From assembly GCF_000426625.1 (NCBI RefSeq), contig NZ_KE384547.1, positions 1,789,159-1,853,158 of the forward strand: a stretch of DNA of 64,000 bases, written 5' to 3'. The translations under genes were made by a program, and so were the position numbers. The number at the start of each line of letters is the position of its first letter. The stretch's first letter is position 1. A model generated the notes under the pieces. The model saw nothing but the letters and a program-made list of their open reading frames with translations. It was not told where the DNA came from and searched no databases. Positions 55,812 through 63,051 of this stretch are shown one piece after another. This stretch comes from Psychrilyobacter atlanticus DSM 19335 (GTDB taxonomy: Bacteria; Fusobacteriota; Fusobacteriia; Fusobacteriales; Fusobacteriaceae).

Positions 55812-56408
55812 CATGGACACAGTAATAATCTTAGAGACATGATTAAATATATCAAAGAGAAGTTACCAGAAACTTTTATTATTGCTGGAAATGTATCTAC
55901 CCCTGATGCGGTAATCGACTTAGAAAATTGGGGTGCTGATGCCATAAAAGTAGGAATTGGTCCAGGAAAGGTTTGTATTACTAGATTTAAAACTGGATTT
56001 GGTTCTGGAGGATGGCAGCTATCAGCCTTGAAATGGTGTGCTAAAGTTGCTACAAAACCTCTTATTGCCGATGGTGGTTTAAGACATAATGGAGATATCG
56101 CGAAATCTATCAGATTTGGAGCTACTATGTGTATGGTAGGATCGATGTTTGCGGGACACGAAGAATCCCCTGGTGAGCTAGTTGTCAAAGATGGTATCCA
56201 ATTGAAAGAATATTATGGTTCTGCTTCTGAATTCAATAAAGGTGAGCGGAAAAATGTTGAAGGTAAAAAAATATTAGTAGATTATAGAGGCCCTATCATA
56301 GATACTCTGATTGAAATGGAAGAAGATATCCAAAGTTCTATCTCCTATGCAGGTGGAAATAATATAGACGCTCTTAGAAAAACAGATTATCTTATTTTAA
56401 AATATTAA
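55812..56408 (+). pseudogene. guaC: GMP reductase, 5'-truncated
   Basis: The frame reads [20 protein letters not shown], then [36 protein letters not shown] with the catalytic Cys, [21 protein letters not shown], and a normal C-terminus. GuaC proteins are about 325 residues; here homology begins at the HGHS motif and the first ~110 residues are missing, with a stop codon just upstream of the junction. An ATG at 55839 could express 189 residues, but half the barrel would be absent. Probably non-functional. The break lies beside the mal promoter. Confidence 0.85.
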
Positions 56409-56434
56409 TTTTAAAGTAACTTAATTATAGTAGT

Positions 56435-56465
56435 AAAAAATGGAAGGGTTCCCTTCCATTTTTTA
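56435..56465 (+). terminator. guaC terminator
   Basis: AAAAATGGAAGG / CCTTCCATTTTT around GTTC, with T run. Confidence 0.88.
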
Positions 56466-56553
56466 TATATTTTTTATACGCTTCCTATATATGAATTACA
56501 GATAGAAGAAAATATGATATACTATTTTTATAATATATTGAGGAGGAATCACC

Positions 56554-57006
56554 TTGGAAAATAAAGGTATTGTTAGAAAAATTGAAGAAAAAAACTTATA
56601 TATAGAACTATTTAGAGACAGCTCTTGTGCTCATTGCTCTGGGTGCGGGCAGAAAGATAAAACTATCGCTGACCTATATCAATATGAACTCAATGAGGAT
56701 ATCAAAGTTAATGTAGGAGACCTAATAACCTTTGAGATAAACAATAAATTCATCTTGAATTTAGCTCTTCTCATCTATATCCTCCCTGTAATTTTAATGA
56801 TTCTAAGCTATATCATAGCTGCTAAATTAGGCGCCAGTGAAGGACAAGGAATCTTTGTCAGTTTCGCTACCTTGGTAATCTCATTTTTAGGTTTTTATTT
56901 TTACGATAAAAAAAGTGGAAGTAAATTGATCAAAGAGGAGATCTCTATCAAGGAAGTTGTCCCTGCCGATGAGATAAAAATTACTAGTTGTGGTCCTAAA
57001 GAATAA
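56554..57006 (+). CDS. rseC: RseC/MucC-family protein
   Basis: A 150-residue inner-membrane protein. The N-terminal domain has clustered Cys (SSCAHCSGCGQ near residue 23), followed by two membrane segments (about 68-90 and 100-120) and a short C-terminal tail. This is the SoxR-reducing / RseC layout, often tied to redox (Rnf) complexes. Start is TTG, with AGGAGG 7 bases upstream. A TTACAG / TATACT promoter lies ahead. Monocistronic, so its partner is unknown. Confidence 0.8.
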   Translation: MENKGIVRKIEEKNLYIELFRDSSCAHCSGCGQKDKTIADLYQYELNEDIKVNVGDLITFEINNKFILNLALLIYILPVILMILSYIIAAKLGASEGQGIFVSFATLVISFLGFYFYDKKSGSKLIKEEISIKEVVPADEIKITSCGPKE

Positions 57007-57050
57007 AAAAAATAACCCTTAAATCACATGTGATTTAAGGGTTATTTTTT
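57006..57050. terminator. Bidirectional terminator
   Basis: Long perfect palindrome (arms about 20, centred on CACATGTG) with T runs on both sides, ending both the rseC-like gene and the small peptide ORF. Confidence 0.92.
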
Positions 57051-57186
57051 AGTTTTGTTCAAATATAAACTTAGATATATTAGTTAGTACTTTAGGTATT
57101 CTTCTTCCTTGACCAATATATTCATTACACAAAACTAAGGTAAAAAGTATTAAAAATCCGATGCAAATCAATATTTTTCTATTCAT
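57049..57186 (-). CDS. 45-residue secreted-type peptide, candidate signal precursor
   Basis: Not in any family I recognise. MNRK is followed by a hydrophobic segment ILICIGFLILFTLVLC (about residues 5-20), then a 25-residue polar tail, NEYIGQGRRIPKV then LTNISKFIFEQN. AGGGA lies about 7 bases before the ATG. It starts 15 bases after the HTH-TPR gene on the same strand and ends in a terminator. Size, signal-like N-terminus and position match precursors of peptide pheromones sensed by TPR regulators; this function is inferred. Confidence 0.6.
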   Translation of the reverse strand: MNRKILICIGFLILFTLVLCNEYIGQGRRIPKVLTNISKFIFEQN

Positions 57187-57200
57187 AGCTATCCCTTTTT

Positions 57201-58409
57201 TTATAAATTAATACTTTTAATTAGAAGCGATGCTTCATATTCCATATTGTTATTAAAATAAAATTTTAATATATACATAGAAAAGTCGTAACACATGATT
57301 TGTTTTGGTATTTCACAAATTATTTTTATTAAGTTTTGTTGTTTTAATGGCTGATGACCATAGAGTAAAACAAGCTGCTTTATAGAGTCTAAATATTTAG
57401 TAGGACTAAAGTGATGATGGTTAAGATCTAAAGGGAATGAAATTTCCTTTTCAAAAGCAACAATAGCTTCCTTTTTCTCACCTAAATATAGATAAGATAG
57501 CCCTAAATTCCAATAAGTTTGATATAAAGTTTTGTTTTGTAATTCTTTAAGGATCTTTTCAAGTTTATTAACAGTAATTTTTATCAGTATTTCATTTTTC
57601 ATTTCTTTAGCACAAGAAATAATGTTAGTATAACAAATTTCTAAATCATTATAATTTAATGGGTCGCTAACACTTTTCTTAAAGAATTCAATGGCTTTTT
57701 CATATTTACCTAATTTTTGATAACAAATACCTAGGTTATTGTAGGAATGATAGTAATGTTTTGTAATTTTTTCCATCTCAATAAGAACCTCAAAACACGT
57801 AATAGCTTTACTCCATTTTTTAGTTTCTAAAAGACTTACTCCGGTATTATAAGCTAAGAGTGCTTTTGTTTTATATGGCGCTTTATCGGTTTTCTTTTGA
57901 TATTTCAGATATATTTCATAGGTAAGCTCTGCTTTTTCCAAACGAATTATCTCAATTAGAATGGAATAAAAAAAACTAAAGCAAGGGAAGTGATTTAACA
58001 GGTTATAATAGATCTTTAAAGCTTCTTCTTCCTTGCCTATCTTTTGATTATATTTGGCTATAATATACCGATATTTACAGCTGTGAACTTCTTTCTCTCT
58101 TCCAAAATTCTCTATTTCTTCTTGTTTTTCTTTGGAATAGATTGTTTTATCTATCAAGCTTTCATCAACTAATTTATCCAGTTCCTGCTGGGGAGTGATA
58201 TACAGCTCTTCCATAGTAATAATCTTATTTATATTTCTTTCCTGAAAAATTCTATTAAAAGAATCAACCAACAGGGGGATATGTTTTTCTTTAAAAGAAT
58301 TTTGCCCTTTTTTTATTTTAGTGAGATAAGTAGAGGTAATCCCTTTACATCCCAGTTCTTTAAAAGTTATTTTATATATTTTGGCTATTTCAAATATTTT
58401 ATCTTCCAT
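57201..58409 (-). CDS. HTH-TPR (RRNPP-like) transcriptional regulator
   Basis: A 402-residue protein with an N-terminal XRE-like HTH (about 1-55, FKELGCKGITSTYLTKIKKG) and a helical C-terminal domain from about 115 to 390. The TPR-like units include AYNTGVSLLETKKWSKAI, YNNLGICYQKLGKYEKAIEF near 245 and WNLGLSYLYLGEKKEAIV near 320. This layout is that of Rgg/PlcR/NprR-type peptide receptors. AGGAGG lies 5 bases before the ATG. It is divergent from the membrane/MFS/CPBP genes and co-directional with the small peptide ORF. Confidence 0.8.
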   Translation of the reverse strand: MEDKIFEIAKIYKITFKELGCKGITSTYLTKIKKGQNSFKEKHIPLLVDSFNRIFQERNINKIITMEELYITPQQELDKLVDESLIDKTIYSKEKQEEIENFGREKEVHSCKYRYIIAKYNQKIGKEEEALKIYYNLLNHFPCFSFFYSILIEIIRLEKAELTYEIYLKYQKKTDKAPYKTKALLAYNTGVSLLETKKWSKAITCFEVLIEMEKITKHYYHSYNNLGICYQKLGKYEKAIEFFKKSVSDPLNYNDLEICYTNIISCAKEMKNEILIKITVNKLEKILKELQNKTLYQTYWNLGLSYLYLGEKKEAIVAFEKEISFPLDLNHHHFSPTKYLDSIKQLVLLYGHQPLKQQNLIKIICEIPKQIMCYDFSMYILKFYFNNNMEYEASLLIKSINL

Positions 58410-58447
58410 ATTGACCTCCTGAAATGTAACCGTATTATATGATTAAT

Positions 58448-58518
58448 ATTCAGTTTTTTCCACTAAAATTCAATTTTTGATAAAAACTGAATAAAAAGGT
58501 CCTTAAAATTCAGTTTTT
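58448..58518. promoter_or_regulatory. Repeated operator half-sites ATTCAGTTTTT
   Basis: Four copies: 58448-58458 exact, 58468-58478 with one change, 58482-58492 inverted exact, and 58508-58518 exact. Direct copies start 20 and 40 bases apart, two and four helical turns. The array lies between the regulator promoter (TATAAT, minus) and the -35 of the divergent operon. Likely binding sites of the HTH-TPR protein. Confidence 0.7.
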
Positions 58519-58537
58519 ACGTTTTTTTTGAAAAAAA

Positions 58538-58566
58538 TTGAAAAATTTGTTTTAACAAAATAATAT
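58538..58566 (+). promoter_or_regulatory. Promoter of the membrane/MFS/CPBP operon
   Basis: TTGAAA (58538-58543), 17-base spacer, TAATAT (58561-58566). The nearest half-site ends 19 bases before the -35, a spot suited to activation. Confidence 0.65.
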
Positions 58567-58671
58567 ACTATATTAACACTTGGAATAAGGTACAAACAAA
58601 TTAAAAAGGAGTAAAAATCTCTTTTTGTTATTTTTTTAAATAACATCAATAAAATTTTGGAGGATATTATT

Positions 58672-59559
58672 ATGAAAAGAAATTATTACATTATGAGCAT
58701 ACCATTAATATCAATTTTAATGGTTACTAGTATTATCAGCTATGTATTTTTAGGCCATTCTATTGCAATTAGGTTACTTACTTTTATTGGAATTACTGAA
58801 GCTGTTTTGGCTAAATTTCAAGGTGAACTTTTATTTAAAAATAGCTTTAAAAAATATTATTCTTTAGTAATGTTATTAATTCCAAGTAGTGTGTTTTTAT
58901 TTTTGAATAATAATACAGAAGGGTTCTATATAGGCTCTTTCATAGGAATAATTATATTCCTTGTTAGAATTTATTTTTCTTTAAAAAAGATACCTATTAA
59001 AGAGAAAAGCAATGATAAGAGAATAAAAATTATTGATATTTACTTTTCCTTAGGTTTTACACTCATAATTTTAGTAAATATTTATTGTACAAATTTTTAC
59101 AACAACCAAAATAGAATAAATTGGGAGACTCCTCTAAATGGAGCTCTTACATCAAATATAAAAATTTTAGATTCAAATATTAAAGTATTAGGTAATAATG
59201 ATCTTTATAGGAAAAATTACTACAACTTACCACAAACATTTATTTTAGACTCTATAAAGGGAATTATCTTAAGTAAAAAAGGTGGATATGAGTTTGAGGA
59301 AGAATTCCAGCCCTATAAAGGAAAGGTAAATAAAATAACCTATAAAAATATTGAAATTTCAGGTATAGAAAATATTATATATTTTAAAGATCTAAATAGT
59401 AAGAAAGTCATTTCTAAATTTATTGCTAATGGAAAGATATTATCAACACCTATAATTGATAAAAACAACCTTTATTTTGTTGCTAATGATTGGAGTTGGC
59501 TGGATAAAAGAAGGAAAAGTAAAATTTATTCTTTAGATATTTCAAATCTTAAAATTTAA
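58672..59559 (+). CDS. Membrane protein with C-terminal beta-repeat domain
   Basis: Not recognised. 295 residues with about five membrane segments (8-28, 31-46, 63-79, 84-103, 121-140). The outer C-terminal domain of ~150 residues ends in YFKDLNSKKVISKFIANGKI then LSTPIIDKNNLYFVAN, which resembles one blade of a PQQ-type beta-propeller. The ATG at 58672 follows GGAGG by 9 bases. First gene of the divergent operon, so probably a target of the regulator. A membrane sensor or accessory factor is possible. Confidence 0.65.
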   Translation: MKRNYYIMSIPLISILMVTSIISYVFLGHSIAIRLLTFIGITEAVLAKFQGELLFKNSFKKYYSLVMLLIPSSVFLFLNNNTEGFYIGSFIGIIIFLVRIYFSLKKIPIKEKSNDKRIKIIDIYFSLGFTLIILVNIYCTNFYNNQNRINWETPLNGALTSNIKILDSNIKVLGNNDLYRKNYYNLPQTFILDSIKGIILSKKGGYEFEEEFQPYKGKVNKITYKNIEISGIENIIYFKDLNSKKVISKFIANGKILSTPIIDKNNLYFVANDWSWLDKRRKSKIYSLDISNLKI

Positions 59560-59621
59560 AAGAGTTTAGTTTTGATATAAAATCCCCTGTTTAAAATTAT
59601 ATTGTAGTGTAGGGAGGAAGT

Positions 59622-60860
59622 ATGAAAAATTATTGGTTATATTTTGGGTGTAGGATAGCTTCAATTTTAGGAGGATCATTACAAAATGCTATTATTCCCA
59701 TTGTAATCTTAGAGGGAACGAGGTCTGGTGGAGCACTGGGTTCTGTTTTAGGTGTACAAGAAGTGTTACTTTTATTAACTTCATTTATAGCAGGGTTTAT
59801 AGCAGATAAATTTAATAGGAAATATATAATGATCATTTGTGATCTAATAAATGCAGCTTTATTAGGTGGATACATACTCTTAGCTCAAGGAGATATAAGC
59901 TACCTTTTTGCTCTTATTTTTATACAAAATTCAGTGAACAAACTTTTCTTTGCAGCTTCTGCAACTATTTTTAGTCAAATTGTAAAAAGTAAAGACTTGT
60001 TAAAGAGAAAATCAGTTATGAAAACTGTGATTAGAATCATAAATATCTCAGCTCCACCTATAGGAATTTTTCTTTATACGAAACTAGGATTAAACTTTAT
60101 TCTAACTATTAATCTAATATCATTTCTAGTCTCTGGGATTTTAGAATTTTTTATTAGGTATAAGTCACATTTAACAAAACAAAACAAAAGAGAAAAGCTA
60201 AATATTATTAAAGAATATAAAGAACCATTGGTATATATAAAAGATTCTAATTCGAGTTTTAAAGGTCTTATATTGTTTATACTATCTATAAATTTCTTTT
60301 TTAATCCTATAGTATCAGTTGTTTTTCCATTTATTATTACCAGCTACCTAAAACTTCCTGTAATATTTTTAGGGTATACTATGTCTAGTTCTGCAATAGG
60401 ATGTATTGTAGGAGGAGGAATATTAGCTAGATACACTGAAAAATTTGAATTGGGAGGGAAGTTCTGGAAAAAAATGGTTGTAATTAATTTTATAACTTTC
60501 GCAGGCATCCCTATCTCACTGTATATTTTCAGCAATAATTTACTGTTATGTCAGTTAAGTATAGTCAGCTTATTTTCTATCTTTGGGGCAACTAATATTA
60601 TATATGTTGAAACTTTGTTTGTATATTTTGAGATAATAATACCCCATAAAATAAAAGGCAGAGCTTTTTCATTGATAGAGATATTTGGGTCTATTTTAAC
60701 TCCTATTGGCTATTTTTTAGTAGCAGGAATTATAGACAAAGTTAATCCATTTTATTTATCTCTTATAGCCTGTGGCTTATGTTTTATTTTTTACTCTATT
60801 GTAGTGGTAAGGAGGTTGGATTTGAAAGAAATAAAAATAAATTTAGAAAAAGCTATATAG
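59622..60860 (+). CDS. MFS exporter
   Basis: A 412-residue MFS_3-type transporter with about twelve helices. It has the loop-2/3 motif GFIADKFNRKYIM near residue 57 and Gly-rich helix ends (AIGCIVGGGILARYTEKF near 260). The subfamily exports macrolides, siderophores and peptide-like antibiotics. In this operon a peptide or small-molecule export role is inferred. An AGGGAGG ribosome binding site is present. Confidence 0.8.
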   Translation: MKNYWLYFGCRIASILGGSLQNAIIPIVILEGTRSGGALGSVLGVQEVLLLLTSFIAGFIADKFNRKYIMIICDLINAALLGGYILLAQGDISYLFALIFIQNSVNKLFFAASATIFSQIVKSKDLLKRKSVMKTVIRIINISAPPIGIFLYTKLGLNFILTINLISFLVSGILEFFIRYKSHLTKQNKREKLNIIKEYKEPLVYIKDSNSSFKGLILFILSINFFFNPIVSVVFPFIITSYLKLPVIFLGYTMSSSAIGCIVGGGILARYTEKFELGGKFWKKMVVINFITFAGIPISLYIFSNNLLLCQLSIVSLFSIFGATNIIYVETLFVYFEIIIPHKIKGRAFSLIEIFGSILTPIGYFLVAGIIDKVNPFYLSLIACGLCFIFYSIVVVRRLDLKEIKINLEKAI

Positions 60861-60944
60861 GGCAAGTAACTTTGATATCAAGATTATTTTCTTTTAAAAT
60901 AATTAAAAATCTTTTTTCTATAGTAATAAATTATTGGAGGAGTC

Positions 60945-61718
60945 ATGGAACAAATTATTGAACAAAAAAAAGCATCGACCTTTATAACTTTATTTTTATT
61001 CTTCGTTTTTAGCGCTGTTGGTGTTGTTATCGCTTATATGATAACTGATAATGACGATTTAATAGGTATTATTGCTTATACAGTAACTTTTTTAGTTTTA
61101 CTTTGTTATTTTCAATTAAAAAAAGGAGTCTTAGAAGATATTAATTTTAAAATCCGAGAATTAGAAGTTTTAAAAATCCTTAAAATCTTATTTTACTGTA
61201 TTATTTTTTTTATTATGTCAAATTTCGTGTACTGGATTTTATCGACCTACACTCATTTAAAATTTTATAACGAAACTGAAAATTTAAAGCCTTATAGTAA
61301 AACTCATCTTGGTCAGTTAATTTTTTTTGTTTCTTTAACTATTTTTCCTGCTGTGGTAGAAGAAATAGTCTTTAGAGGGGTCCTTTTTAAAAATTTAATT
61401 TTTAGATATGGTTTAAAAGTAGCTATTTTAGCTACATGTATTATTTTTAGTTTTATTCATGGTCTTTCTGATGGGTTAAATATTTTTTTAAGTGGCGGTA
61501 CTTTTTATATAGCTTATATATACTATAAAGAAAAAAACATATTGTATCCTATTATTTTTCATGGAGTTTCTAACTTCATGTCTCTTTTTCCAAGAATTAA
61601 TTATATTTCTGGCGACTCACCAAATAAATTTATTTTTCTATTTATGTTTGCACTACCCTTTATATTAAGAAAACTATATCAAATTTTTATACTAGAAAAA
61701 AATAGCTTTAAATTTTAA
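60945..61718 (+). CDS. CPBP-family intramembrane protease
   Basis: A 257-residue protein with about seven membrane segments. The three CPBP (Abi/CAAX-like) motifs are present: EEIVFRGVLF near residue 139 with the Glu pair, FSFIHG near 170, and HGVSNF near 208. Members process peptides or give immunity to bacteriocins. GGAGG lies 4 bases before the ATG. Last gene of the operon; processing of the exported peptide or self-protection are both possible. Confidence 0.85.
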   Translation: MEQIIEQKKASTFITLFLFFVFSAVGVVIAYMITDNDDLIGIIAYTVTFLVLLCYFQLKKGVLEDINFKIRELEVLKILKILFYCIIFFIMSNFVYWILSTYTHLKFYNETENLKPYSKTHLGQLIFFVSLTIFPAVVEEIVFRGVLFKNLIFRYGLKVAILATCIIFSFIHGLSDGLNIFLSGGTFYIAYIYYKEKNILYPIIFHGVSNFMSLFPRINYISGDSPNKFIFLFMFALPFILRKLYQIFILEKNSFKF

Positions 61719-61726
61719 AAAGTTAT

Positions 61727-61759
61727 AAAAAAAAGAACTCCATGGAGTTCTTTTTTTTT
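61727..61759. terminator. Bidirectional terminator
   Basis: GAACTCCATGGAGTTC palindrome flanked by eight A and eight T, between the convergent CPBP and permease genes. Confidence 0.92.
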
Positions 61760-61764
61760 ATCCT

Positions 61765-63051
61765 TTATACCACTAAACTTAGAAGTGAAAGTCCCCCTAT
61801 AGCCCATAAAACCGGAGAAACTTTATTATATTCCCCTGTTCCTACATGGACTACTATAAATGATAAGAATCCAAAACTAAGTCCTGTACTGATACTATAT
61901 GTAAGAGGCATCATGATAACTGTTGCAAACACAGGTAGTGCCGTTTTAAAATCATGAAGATTCAATTCCTTCAGATTTTTAAACATATAGATTCCAACAA
62001 TAATAAGAGCTGGTGCTGTAGCATAAGCCGGTACAATCCCTACAATCGGTGTAAATAACAGTGAAAGTAAGAATAATATTCCGATGACAACTGAAGCTAA
62101 CCCTGTTCTGGCTCCTGCTGCTATCCCTGCTGTAGTCTCTGATAACGTGGTAACTGTACTAGATCCCAATACTGACCCTACTATTGTAGAGGCTACATCT
62201 GTATGGATCATTCTACCTAGAGATAGGATATTCCCGTCTTCATCTTCCATTCCCATCTCCTTTGCACAGGCAATAAGAGTTCCCAATGAATCAAACAGGT
62301 CTACAAACATAAATGAGAATATAGGCCCGATCAACGCAAATTGTAAAGCTCCTAATATATCTAATTTAAACGCAATAGGTGCTATTGACGGCGGCATAGA
62401 CATTATCTGTGTAGGAAGCTCAACTACCCCTATCATCATCCCTAAAACAGTCGTAGTGATCATCCCGATCAACATTCCACCCTTTACATTTCTAAGCTCT
62501 AAGAGAGCCGATACCATTATTCCTATCACTCCTAAAACAACTGTAGGAGTAAATTTACCGAGAGATACAAATGTTGCCGGGTTAGCTACTATAAGTCCCA
62601 TACTCTTTAGTCCTATAAAAGCTATGAAAAGTCCTATTCCAGCTGTAGAAGCTATCTTTAGTTCTACTGGAATTGCCTGAGCTATCCTCTCTCTTATCCC
62701 ACCAATAGACATAATTAAGAAGAATAATCCAGATATAAATACGACTCCCAATGCTGTTTCCCAAGGTATTCCCTTTCCAATAACCAATGTATATGTAAAA
62801 AATGCGTTAAGTCCCATTCCTGGTGCTAATCCTAATGGTGCATTTGCCCAAAAAGCTGCTATCAAACTACCTATTGCGGCACTTAAACATGTAATAGTAA
62901 TAAGAGCTCCTTTATCCATCCCTGTATCTGCCATTATTGAAGGGTTTACAAATATAATATATGACATAGTCATAAATGTAGTAAGTCCCCCAATAACCTC
63001 TTGCTTTACCGAAGTTTTTCTTTCGGTTAATTTAAACATTCTTTCCAACAT
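61765..63051 (-). CDS. pbuG: NCS2-family guanine/hypoxanthine permease
   Basis: A 428-residue purine permease of the AzgA/PbuG type (COG2252) with about twelve to fourteen helices. It has EVIGGLTTFMTMSYIIFVNP near residue 19, GLAPGMGLNAFFTY near 75, FVDLFDSLGTLIACA near 250, and SSTVTTLSETTAGIAAGARTG near 295. It imports purine bases by proton symport. The guanine-type riboswitch upstream supports guanine/hypoxanthine as substrate. Confidence 0.9.
   Translation of the reverse strand: MLERMFKLTERKTSVKQEVIGGLTTFMTMSYIIFVNPSIMADTGMDKGALITITCLSAAIGSLIAAFWANAPLGLAPGMGLNAFFTYTLVIGKGIPWETALGVVFISGLFFLIMSIGGIRERIAQAIPVELKIASTAGIGLFIAFIGLKSMGLIVANPATFVSLGKFTPTVVLGVIGIMVSALLELRNVKGGMLIGMITTTVLGMMIGVVELPTQIMSMPPSIAPIAFKLDILGALQFALIGPIFSFMFVDLFDSLGTLIACAKEMGMEDEDGNILSLGRMIHTDVASTIVGSVLGSSTVTTLSETTAGIAAGARTGLASVVIGILFLLSLLFTPIVGIVPAYATAPALIIVGIYMFKNLKELNLHDFKTALPVFATVIMMPLTYSISTGLSFGFLSFIVVHVGTGEYNKVSPVLWAIGGLSLLSLVV

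Follow-up and report, generated by a model that had tools for sequence, protein, structure and literature searches.

The literature accessible to us, outside which most subscription papers lie, assigns RRNPP peptide signalling to Firmicutes or Gram-positive bacteria; it yielded no RRNPP report from Fusobacteriota. The criteria applied to such systems by RRNPP_detector are size, tetratricopeptide repeats (TPR), adjacency and secretion (PMC10075063). RRNPP receptors hold the backbone of the peptide through a conserved asparagine of the TPR region (PMC3601957, PMC6458997), and tandem pheromones occur in the Rap-Phr systems of Bacillus phages (PMC11343458). Here a 64,000-nucleotide stretch of DNA from Psychrilyobacter atlanticus DSM 19335 (the window; contig NZ_KE384547.1) was analysed, in which a gene for a 402-aa regulator with helix-turn-helix (HTH) and TPR regions is followed by a 45-codon open reading frame (ORF), the candidate propeptide gene, and faces a divergent operon. 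The regulator lies within the RRNPP(A) range of size and architecture (250-500 aa, TPR, N-terminal HTH except in Rap), and the small, exported propeptide expected from a directly neighbouring gene (10-100 aa) has a candidate at 17 of 19 related loci, the precursor of Ilyobacter polytropus being 105 aa long; the locus thus shows the size, TPR, adjacency and secretion features used by RRNPP_detector, with secretion scored by a simple rule. We consider it quite probable that this locus of a diderm phylum is a switch operated by a peptide pheromone in the manner of RRNPP systems and controls local cargo. The sequence evidence for this reading consists of the conserved pairing of regulator and small ORF, selection on that ORF, covariation of operator with HTH and of peptide with TPR domain, and linkage of the operator to cargo genes.

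The preliminary description of the locus had named an HTH-TPR regulator, a 45-residue signal-type ORF, half-sites in a divergent promoter region and a set of membrane protein, MFS and CPBP genes, and every one of these parts was present (Table 1). The small ORF starts 14 bases past the regulator stop codon behind an AGGGA ribosome-binding site, and its end runs into a terminator hairpin; because of this short gap and the terminator directly behind it, its sequence context assigns it to the regulator's transcript. At the 19 loci of the regulator clade with readable flanks, an ORF with a signal peptide was found at 17, in 15 cases downstream of the regulator: 11 were directly downstream and intact, three were downstream but frame-broken at a poly-A tract behind the start codon, and one was intact but displaced behind a broken regulator. 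The other two were divergent to the regulator. No small ORF was found at L028b, which is the second member of a regulator pair, or at L029, a copy with a broken frame. When a strict rule was applied (25-140 aa, a ribosome-binding site, Sec-like, start within 60 bases; Sec character scored by a simple rule rather than by SignalP), it was satisfied by 10 of 20 clade entries. Of 422 other genes from these regions 7 satisfied it, and of 28 lower-scoring HTH-TPR regulators from the phylum none did.

In most pairs of near copies, non-synonymous change in the signal part (pN) was far below synonymous change (pS), for example 0.03 versus 0.35 changes per site, a pattern indicating that this part is under purifying selection. 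Behind the signal the two rates were similar, and this was the fastest-changing portion of the ORF. Conservation beside homologous regulators had been set as a point on which the original proposal could fail, and on this point it held, given the retention at 17 of 19 loci and the apparent selection on the signal part.

Two observations on the propeptide genes are recorded here. The gene starts as ATG-A(n)-TGG, with n = 9 in intact genes and n = 7, 8 or 10 in the out-of-frame genes (L024, L025 and L027; compare L026 and L028), whose downstream frame is still open; the tract resembles a slippage site or one subject to phase variation, although an assembly error may also account for it. L032 (G007:C2:1116000-1129000), at the site syntenic to the window, has a broken regulator; its propeptide gene, intact and with a GTG start, lies beyond approximately 2 kb of other genes.

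A small hydrophobic ORF sharing an operon with an HTH regulator could also represent a toxin-antitoxin-like pair, in which the product would be a membrane toxin held down by the regulator. This explanation is very improbable: in the predicted product a hydrophilic tail of variable sequence comes after a cleavable signal, repeat precursors exist, and in G007 an intact small ORF survives near a broken regulator. Searches for toxin-antitoxin or defence elements gave no Rfam match in 56400-62000 and no PADLOC match.

In I. polytropus DSM 2926 (plasmid pILYOP01, NC_014633.1; regulator ILYOP_RS09800, WP_013388349.1; precursor ILYOP_RS15835, annotated as 'hypothetical protein') and two related genomes, the downstream ORF encodes a signal peptide and then six to seven copies of SSRR[AS][TG]SGGWAV. 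In a fourth genome (G011) there are four copies of PSTRRSSGGGWEAVEAT. Copies within a gene vary only synonymously, the linkers are AV or EAVEATP, and 4/4 genes terminate exactly at GGW-stop. These ORFs have the layout of a multi-copy pheromone precursor, and the predicted I. polytropus peptide is the 10-residue SSRRATSGGW. The precursors of L071, L072 and L073 constitute independent confirmation, since their regulators were absent from the search profile.

In a comparison of ten near copies, the mature peptide diverged in step with the N-terminal part of the TPR domain (Mantel r = 0.64, p = 0.0002), less closely with the nearer C-terminal tail (r = 0.46), and not with the HTH (r = -0.06, p = 0.61); for three of these peptides, reading was continued across a broken A tract. 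The predicted mature peptide tracks the TPR domain, not the HTH.

The HTH, in turn, was associated with the operator. An inverted repeat lies approximately 103-112 bases ahead of the regulator start, a position that is constant among the near copies. Regulators with the recognition region TYLTKIKKG have the half-site ACTGAAT (window, L025, L026, L028a, L029 and L032; in L025 and L029 one base is altered on one side), those with TYLSKIKRGHNFF have AATGAAT (L007 and L027), and those with SLLYKIRSGKTPLK have TTGGAA/TTCCAA (L006 and L030; degenerate in L028b and L031). In L024 and L033 the upstream region is lost. From these pairings, the operator half-site tracks the HTH type. At the window locus, four half-sites lie between the regulator and the divergent operon, namely two direct ATTCA[GA]TTTTT copies and both palindrome arms.

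An exact search of 3.54 Mb of the source genome (G000) for the ACTGAAT-type operator found two places, compared to none in the reversed control. The window is one of them, and the second (G000:C2:55073-55105) stands ahead of a propeptide remnant from which the regulator has been deleted, and this orphan pairing was counted in favour of the pheromone switch. Together with the retention of the small ORF at homologous loci, the rarity of the operator indicates that the arrangement exceeds chance. In the four near-complete genomes of the genus, every exact match of the two operator types but one (G002:C35) lay at a locus with a regulator or a propeptide; a single match, in G007, came from the reversed control.

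Two further observations concern these loci. The orphan (G000:C2:54877-55105; L105:7750-8130, minus strand) consists of the operator fused to the remnant, with the frame broken behind the start; the ATPase of an Opp-type oligopeptide ABC importer is encoded approximately 4 kb from it. At L028:5015-7948 (G006), two regulator copies with differing HTH types are in tandem, with a single propeptide gene in between.

The window regulator gave strong TPR matches; its own HTH had no Pfam match but aligned to homologues that matched HTH_3 above the cut-off. The source genome, which comprises three contigs, encodes two further copies with 67-69% identity to it, and genomes of the genus carry up to four or five. 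Relatives belonged to the Fusobacteriaceae. Searching 98 genomes of the phylum with a profile yielded more clade members, down to approximately 25% identity and confined to the same family, as well as a lower-scoring HTH-TPR group of that family (L062-L094), often one per genome, with no adjacent exported peptide. A search for related loci with the window protein alone gave no match, and one with an alignment returned two loci in Fusobacteriaceae as well as two weak TPR matches. One of the weak matches, L097, was rejected as a family relative as it reads as a generic TPR protein. The viral contigs and phages searched contained no relatives, and among the plasmids searched the sole relative was on I. 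polytropus pILYOP01, the query being that plasmid's own regulator. The GTDB phylum to which the metagenome-assembled genome L097 belongs gave no relatives among 149 genomes; this was one sample with no positive control, so relatives may exist in other phyla.

AlphaFold2 models consisted of an HTH and a TPR superhelix, with confidence (pLDDT) of 86 for the window regulator and 92 for that of I. polytropus. The predicted TPR domain forms a superhelix with a groove, the absence of which had been proposed as grounds for abandoning a peptide receptor. N188 and N262, each in a TPR helix A, were invariant in all scored clade members and occurred together in just 6 of 29 relatives that have no peptide; N225 lies between them, spaced 37 residues from each, on successive TPR A-helices. 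N188 and N262 were likened to the backbone-binding asparagine of RRNPP receptors and counted in favour of the pheromone switch. In AimR, N202 and N239 are likewise 37 residues apart; they and RapF N227 are candidate counterparts only.

In Foldseek searches, the first model had no RRNPP receptor among its top 50 matches, which were mainly generic TPR folds (Protein Data Bank and viral structures), and the better model matched two Rap structures at ranks 43 and 45, with generic TPR proteins ahead of both. Because the matches were mainly generic, the fold alone leaves membership undecided. The regulator and its homologues had no match to RNPP or Rgg domains in Pfam or NCBIfam; comparison with AimR gave an hhalign probability of 7%, and RapF was only one of many TPR matches. 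Since specific homology to known subfamilies was sought and not found, the system is described as RRNPP-like rather than as a member of RRNPP. The idea of RRNPP logic put forward in the preliminary description was supported; membership of the RRNPP family was not.

Table 1. Coordinates of features at the window locus.
Feature	Position	Strand	Remarks
Bidirectional intrinsic terminator	57007-57050	.	20-pair stem and T run, both strands; directly behind small ORF
Propeptide gene, 45 aa	57049-57186	-	Predicted signal part approx. residues 1-20 (57127-57186); variable part NEYIGQGRRIPKVLTNISKFIFEQN (57052-57126)
HTH-TPR regulator, 402 aa, candidate peptide receptor	57201-58409	-	HTH approx. residues 1-58; TPR superhelix approx. 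110-400
Candidate promoter, regulator and propeptide	58434-58462	-	TGGAAA-N17-TATAAT; consensus match alone
Two further direct half-sites (ATTCAGTTTTT, ATTCAATTTTT)	58443-58478	.	
Half-site TATTCAGTTTTT	58447-58458		
Half-site ATTCAATTTTT	58468-58478		
Operator palindrome AAAAACTGAAT-N15-ATTCAGTTTTT (- strand reading)	58481-58519	.	Arms 58481-58499 and 58501-58519
Candidate promoter, divergent operon	58538-58566	+	TTGAAA-N17-TAATAT; consensus match alone
Membrane protein, 295 aa, no known family	58672-59559	+	First gene of divergent operon
MFS exporter, 412 aa	59622-60860	+	MFS_1, 1e-25
CPBP (Rce1-like) membrane protein	60945-61718	+	Rce1-like domain, 1e-15; probably bacteriocin immunity

The exceptional operator (G002:C35:189-221) heads a complete class II bacteriocin operon (L133:189-5927), which encodes, in order, a CPBP protein, a GG-leader peptide, another CPBP protein with 66% identity to the window's, a C39-peptidase ABC transporter, an HlyD-type protein and a second GG-leader peptide. 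The contig starts 188 bases ahead of the operator, and within these there is no regulator at the usual distance. A distant regulator, L035 (G009), adjoins GG-leader peptides (one with a weak Bacteriocin_IIc match) and CPBP genes. On the strength of these two cases, the window operon is best read as an immunity and export cassette under the same control, and by its similarity the window CPBP protein is probably of the bacteriocin-immunity type. The window itself has the CPBP-type protein, but no GG-leader precursor was found in its 50-64 kb region and no C39-peptidase ABC exporter among the ORFs around the locus.

The bacteriocin and immunity function offered as an alternative in the preliminary description is thus part of the answer, the same operator heading a bacteriocin operon that contains a homologue of the window CPBP gene. 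These genes would also fit a regulatory system with no peptide signal, in which the TPR regulator senses envelope damage, a foreign bacteriocin or a metabolite and the small product is an antimicrobial or accessory. That version is unlikely, given that the small ORF has a Sec-type signal and no GG leader, that it persists beside regulators with HD-GYP cargo and no bacteriocin, that the repeat precursors look like multi-copy signals, and that the peptide follows the TPR domain.

Other cargo was varied. MFS copies 87% identical to that of the window lie opposite regulators L007 and L027, where there are three MFS genes, and a radical-SAM/MFS/ABC cluster lies opposite L032. An HD-GYP gene lies opposite the regulator in I. 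polytropus and three repeat-precursor relatives, as well as at L026 in the window's genus (Pfam was run on L036 and L026 only). HD-GYP proteins usually degrade cyclic di-GMP, so turnover of this messenger may be an older output. The window's membrane protein of no known family has paralogues within the genus only; three of these (L107, L108 and L110, in G002, G007 and G000:C2:1931101; 37-39% identity) each stand beside a RecR-type gene, with no regulator copy in the stretch seen.

For the pheromone switch, the following mechanism is proposed. The small ORF product would be exported via Sec and its signal peptide removed, after which a short fragment of the variable part would re-enter the cell via an oligopeptide transporter; the genome encodes the ATPase of an Opp-type importer. 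The fragment would then bind in the TPR groove of the regulator, whose gene lies immediately upstream. Sitting on the palindrome between both promoters, presumably as a dimer, the regulator would respond with altered operator occupancy and change expression of the operon that encodes it and the propeptide, as well as of the divergent cargo, which in the window would be the membrane protein, the MFS exporter and the CPBP protein of bacteriocin-immunity type, and in relatives bacteriocin operons, the radical-SAM/ABC cluster, MFS exporters or HD-GYP proteins. Promoter consensus matches at the locus were as frequent as in shuffled sequence, so both promoters are candidates only. The palindrome lies upstream of both, the usual site for an activator, which suggests activation.

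As the organism has an outer membrane, a self-sensing periplasmic loop is a real rival, in which the peptide would be trimmed and re-imported by the same cell and would report export, proteolysis or envelope state rather than density. The diderm envelope and the Opp-type ATPase are both compatible with such a loop, as is the size of the unprocessed mature part, which at approximately 25 residues is large for porins. The predicted 10-residue repeat units, however, could pass porins, and several divergent peptide-receptor pairs per genome suggest strain specificity; we therefore regard the loop as improbable.

Several points weigh against the pheromone switch. Fold and profile searches rank generic TPR proteins ahead of RRNPP receptors, L028b and L029 have no peptide gene of their own, and three peptide genes are out of frame. 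The peptide-TPR correlation is partly due to physical linkage, and n is 10. Translation, export, binding and regulation are predicted from sequence, and true cell-cell signalling must cross the outer membrane twice.

The conservation pattern suggests that the peptide is a signal that switches neighbouring bacteriocin, immunity, exporter or signalling genes. It is probable, at slightly lower confidence than for the switch itself, that the loci represent an RRNPP-logic quorum-sensing family in a Gram-negative, diderm phylum. In this reading the Ilyobacter precursors would be multi-copy in the manner of alpha-factor, genomes of the window's genus would each encode several pairs of peptide and receptor, the propeptide gene would apparently be phase-variable, and both bacteriocin immunity and export and HD-GYP genes would be under control of the family, whose origin may be independent of the Bacillota receptors. 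RRNPP-type signalling in Fusobacteriota would, if true, extend the trait to cells with an outer membrane and make the exit and re-entry of a peptide across that membrane testable, for which the cultured I. polytropus DSM 2926 supplies an immediately testable candidate, SSRRATSGGW. The linked bacteriocin and HD-GYP genes suggest that these marine bacteria use peptides to control competition and perhaps cyclic di-GMP turnover.

Among known systems, the 4-7-copy layout of the repeat precursors is closer to that of yeast alpha-factor precursors than to that of the tandem Rap-Phr systems. Like tandem Rap-Phr systems, these loci have more than one pheromone copy per propeptide, but here there are 4-7 identical copies with linkers, and the receptor has an HTH, which Rap does not. 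Class II bacteriocin operons are usually controlled by a histidine kinase and response regulator; the operator-led G002 operon shares their GG-leader peptides, C39 ABC exporter and CPBP protein, whereas the window copy has no GG-leader peptide and control here is apparently by a cytoplasmic HTH-TPR protein. The closest likeness is to PlcR-PapR, NprR-NprX and AimR-AimP, which have a receptor of approximately 400 aa with HTH and TPR, a small Sec-type propeptide gene just downstream, a long-spacer inverted-repeat operator, a conserved TPR asparagine, with possible counterparts here in N188 and N262, and local cargo. The phi3T AimR-AimP layout (AimR 378 aa, AimP 43 aa, gap of 30 bases) resembles that of the window; two stretches of phi3T that were examined contained no Rap sequence. 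What sets the present loci apart from RRNPP(A) systems is their diderm host, in Fusobacteriota, and their HD-GYP or bacteriocin cargo.

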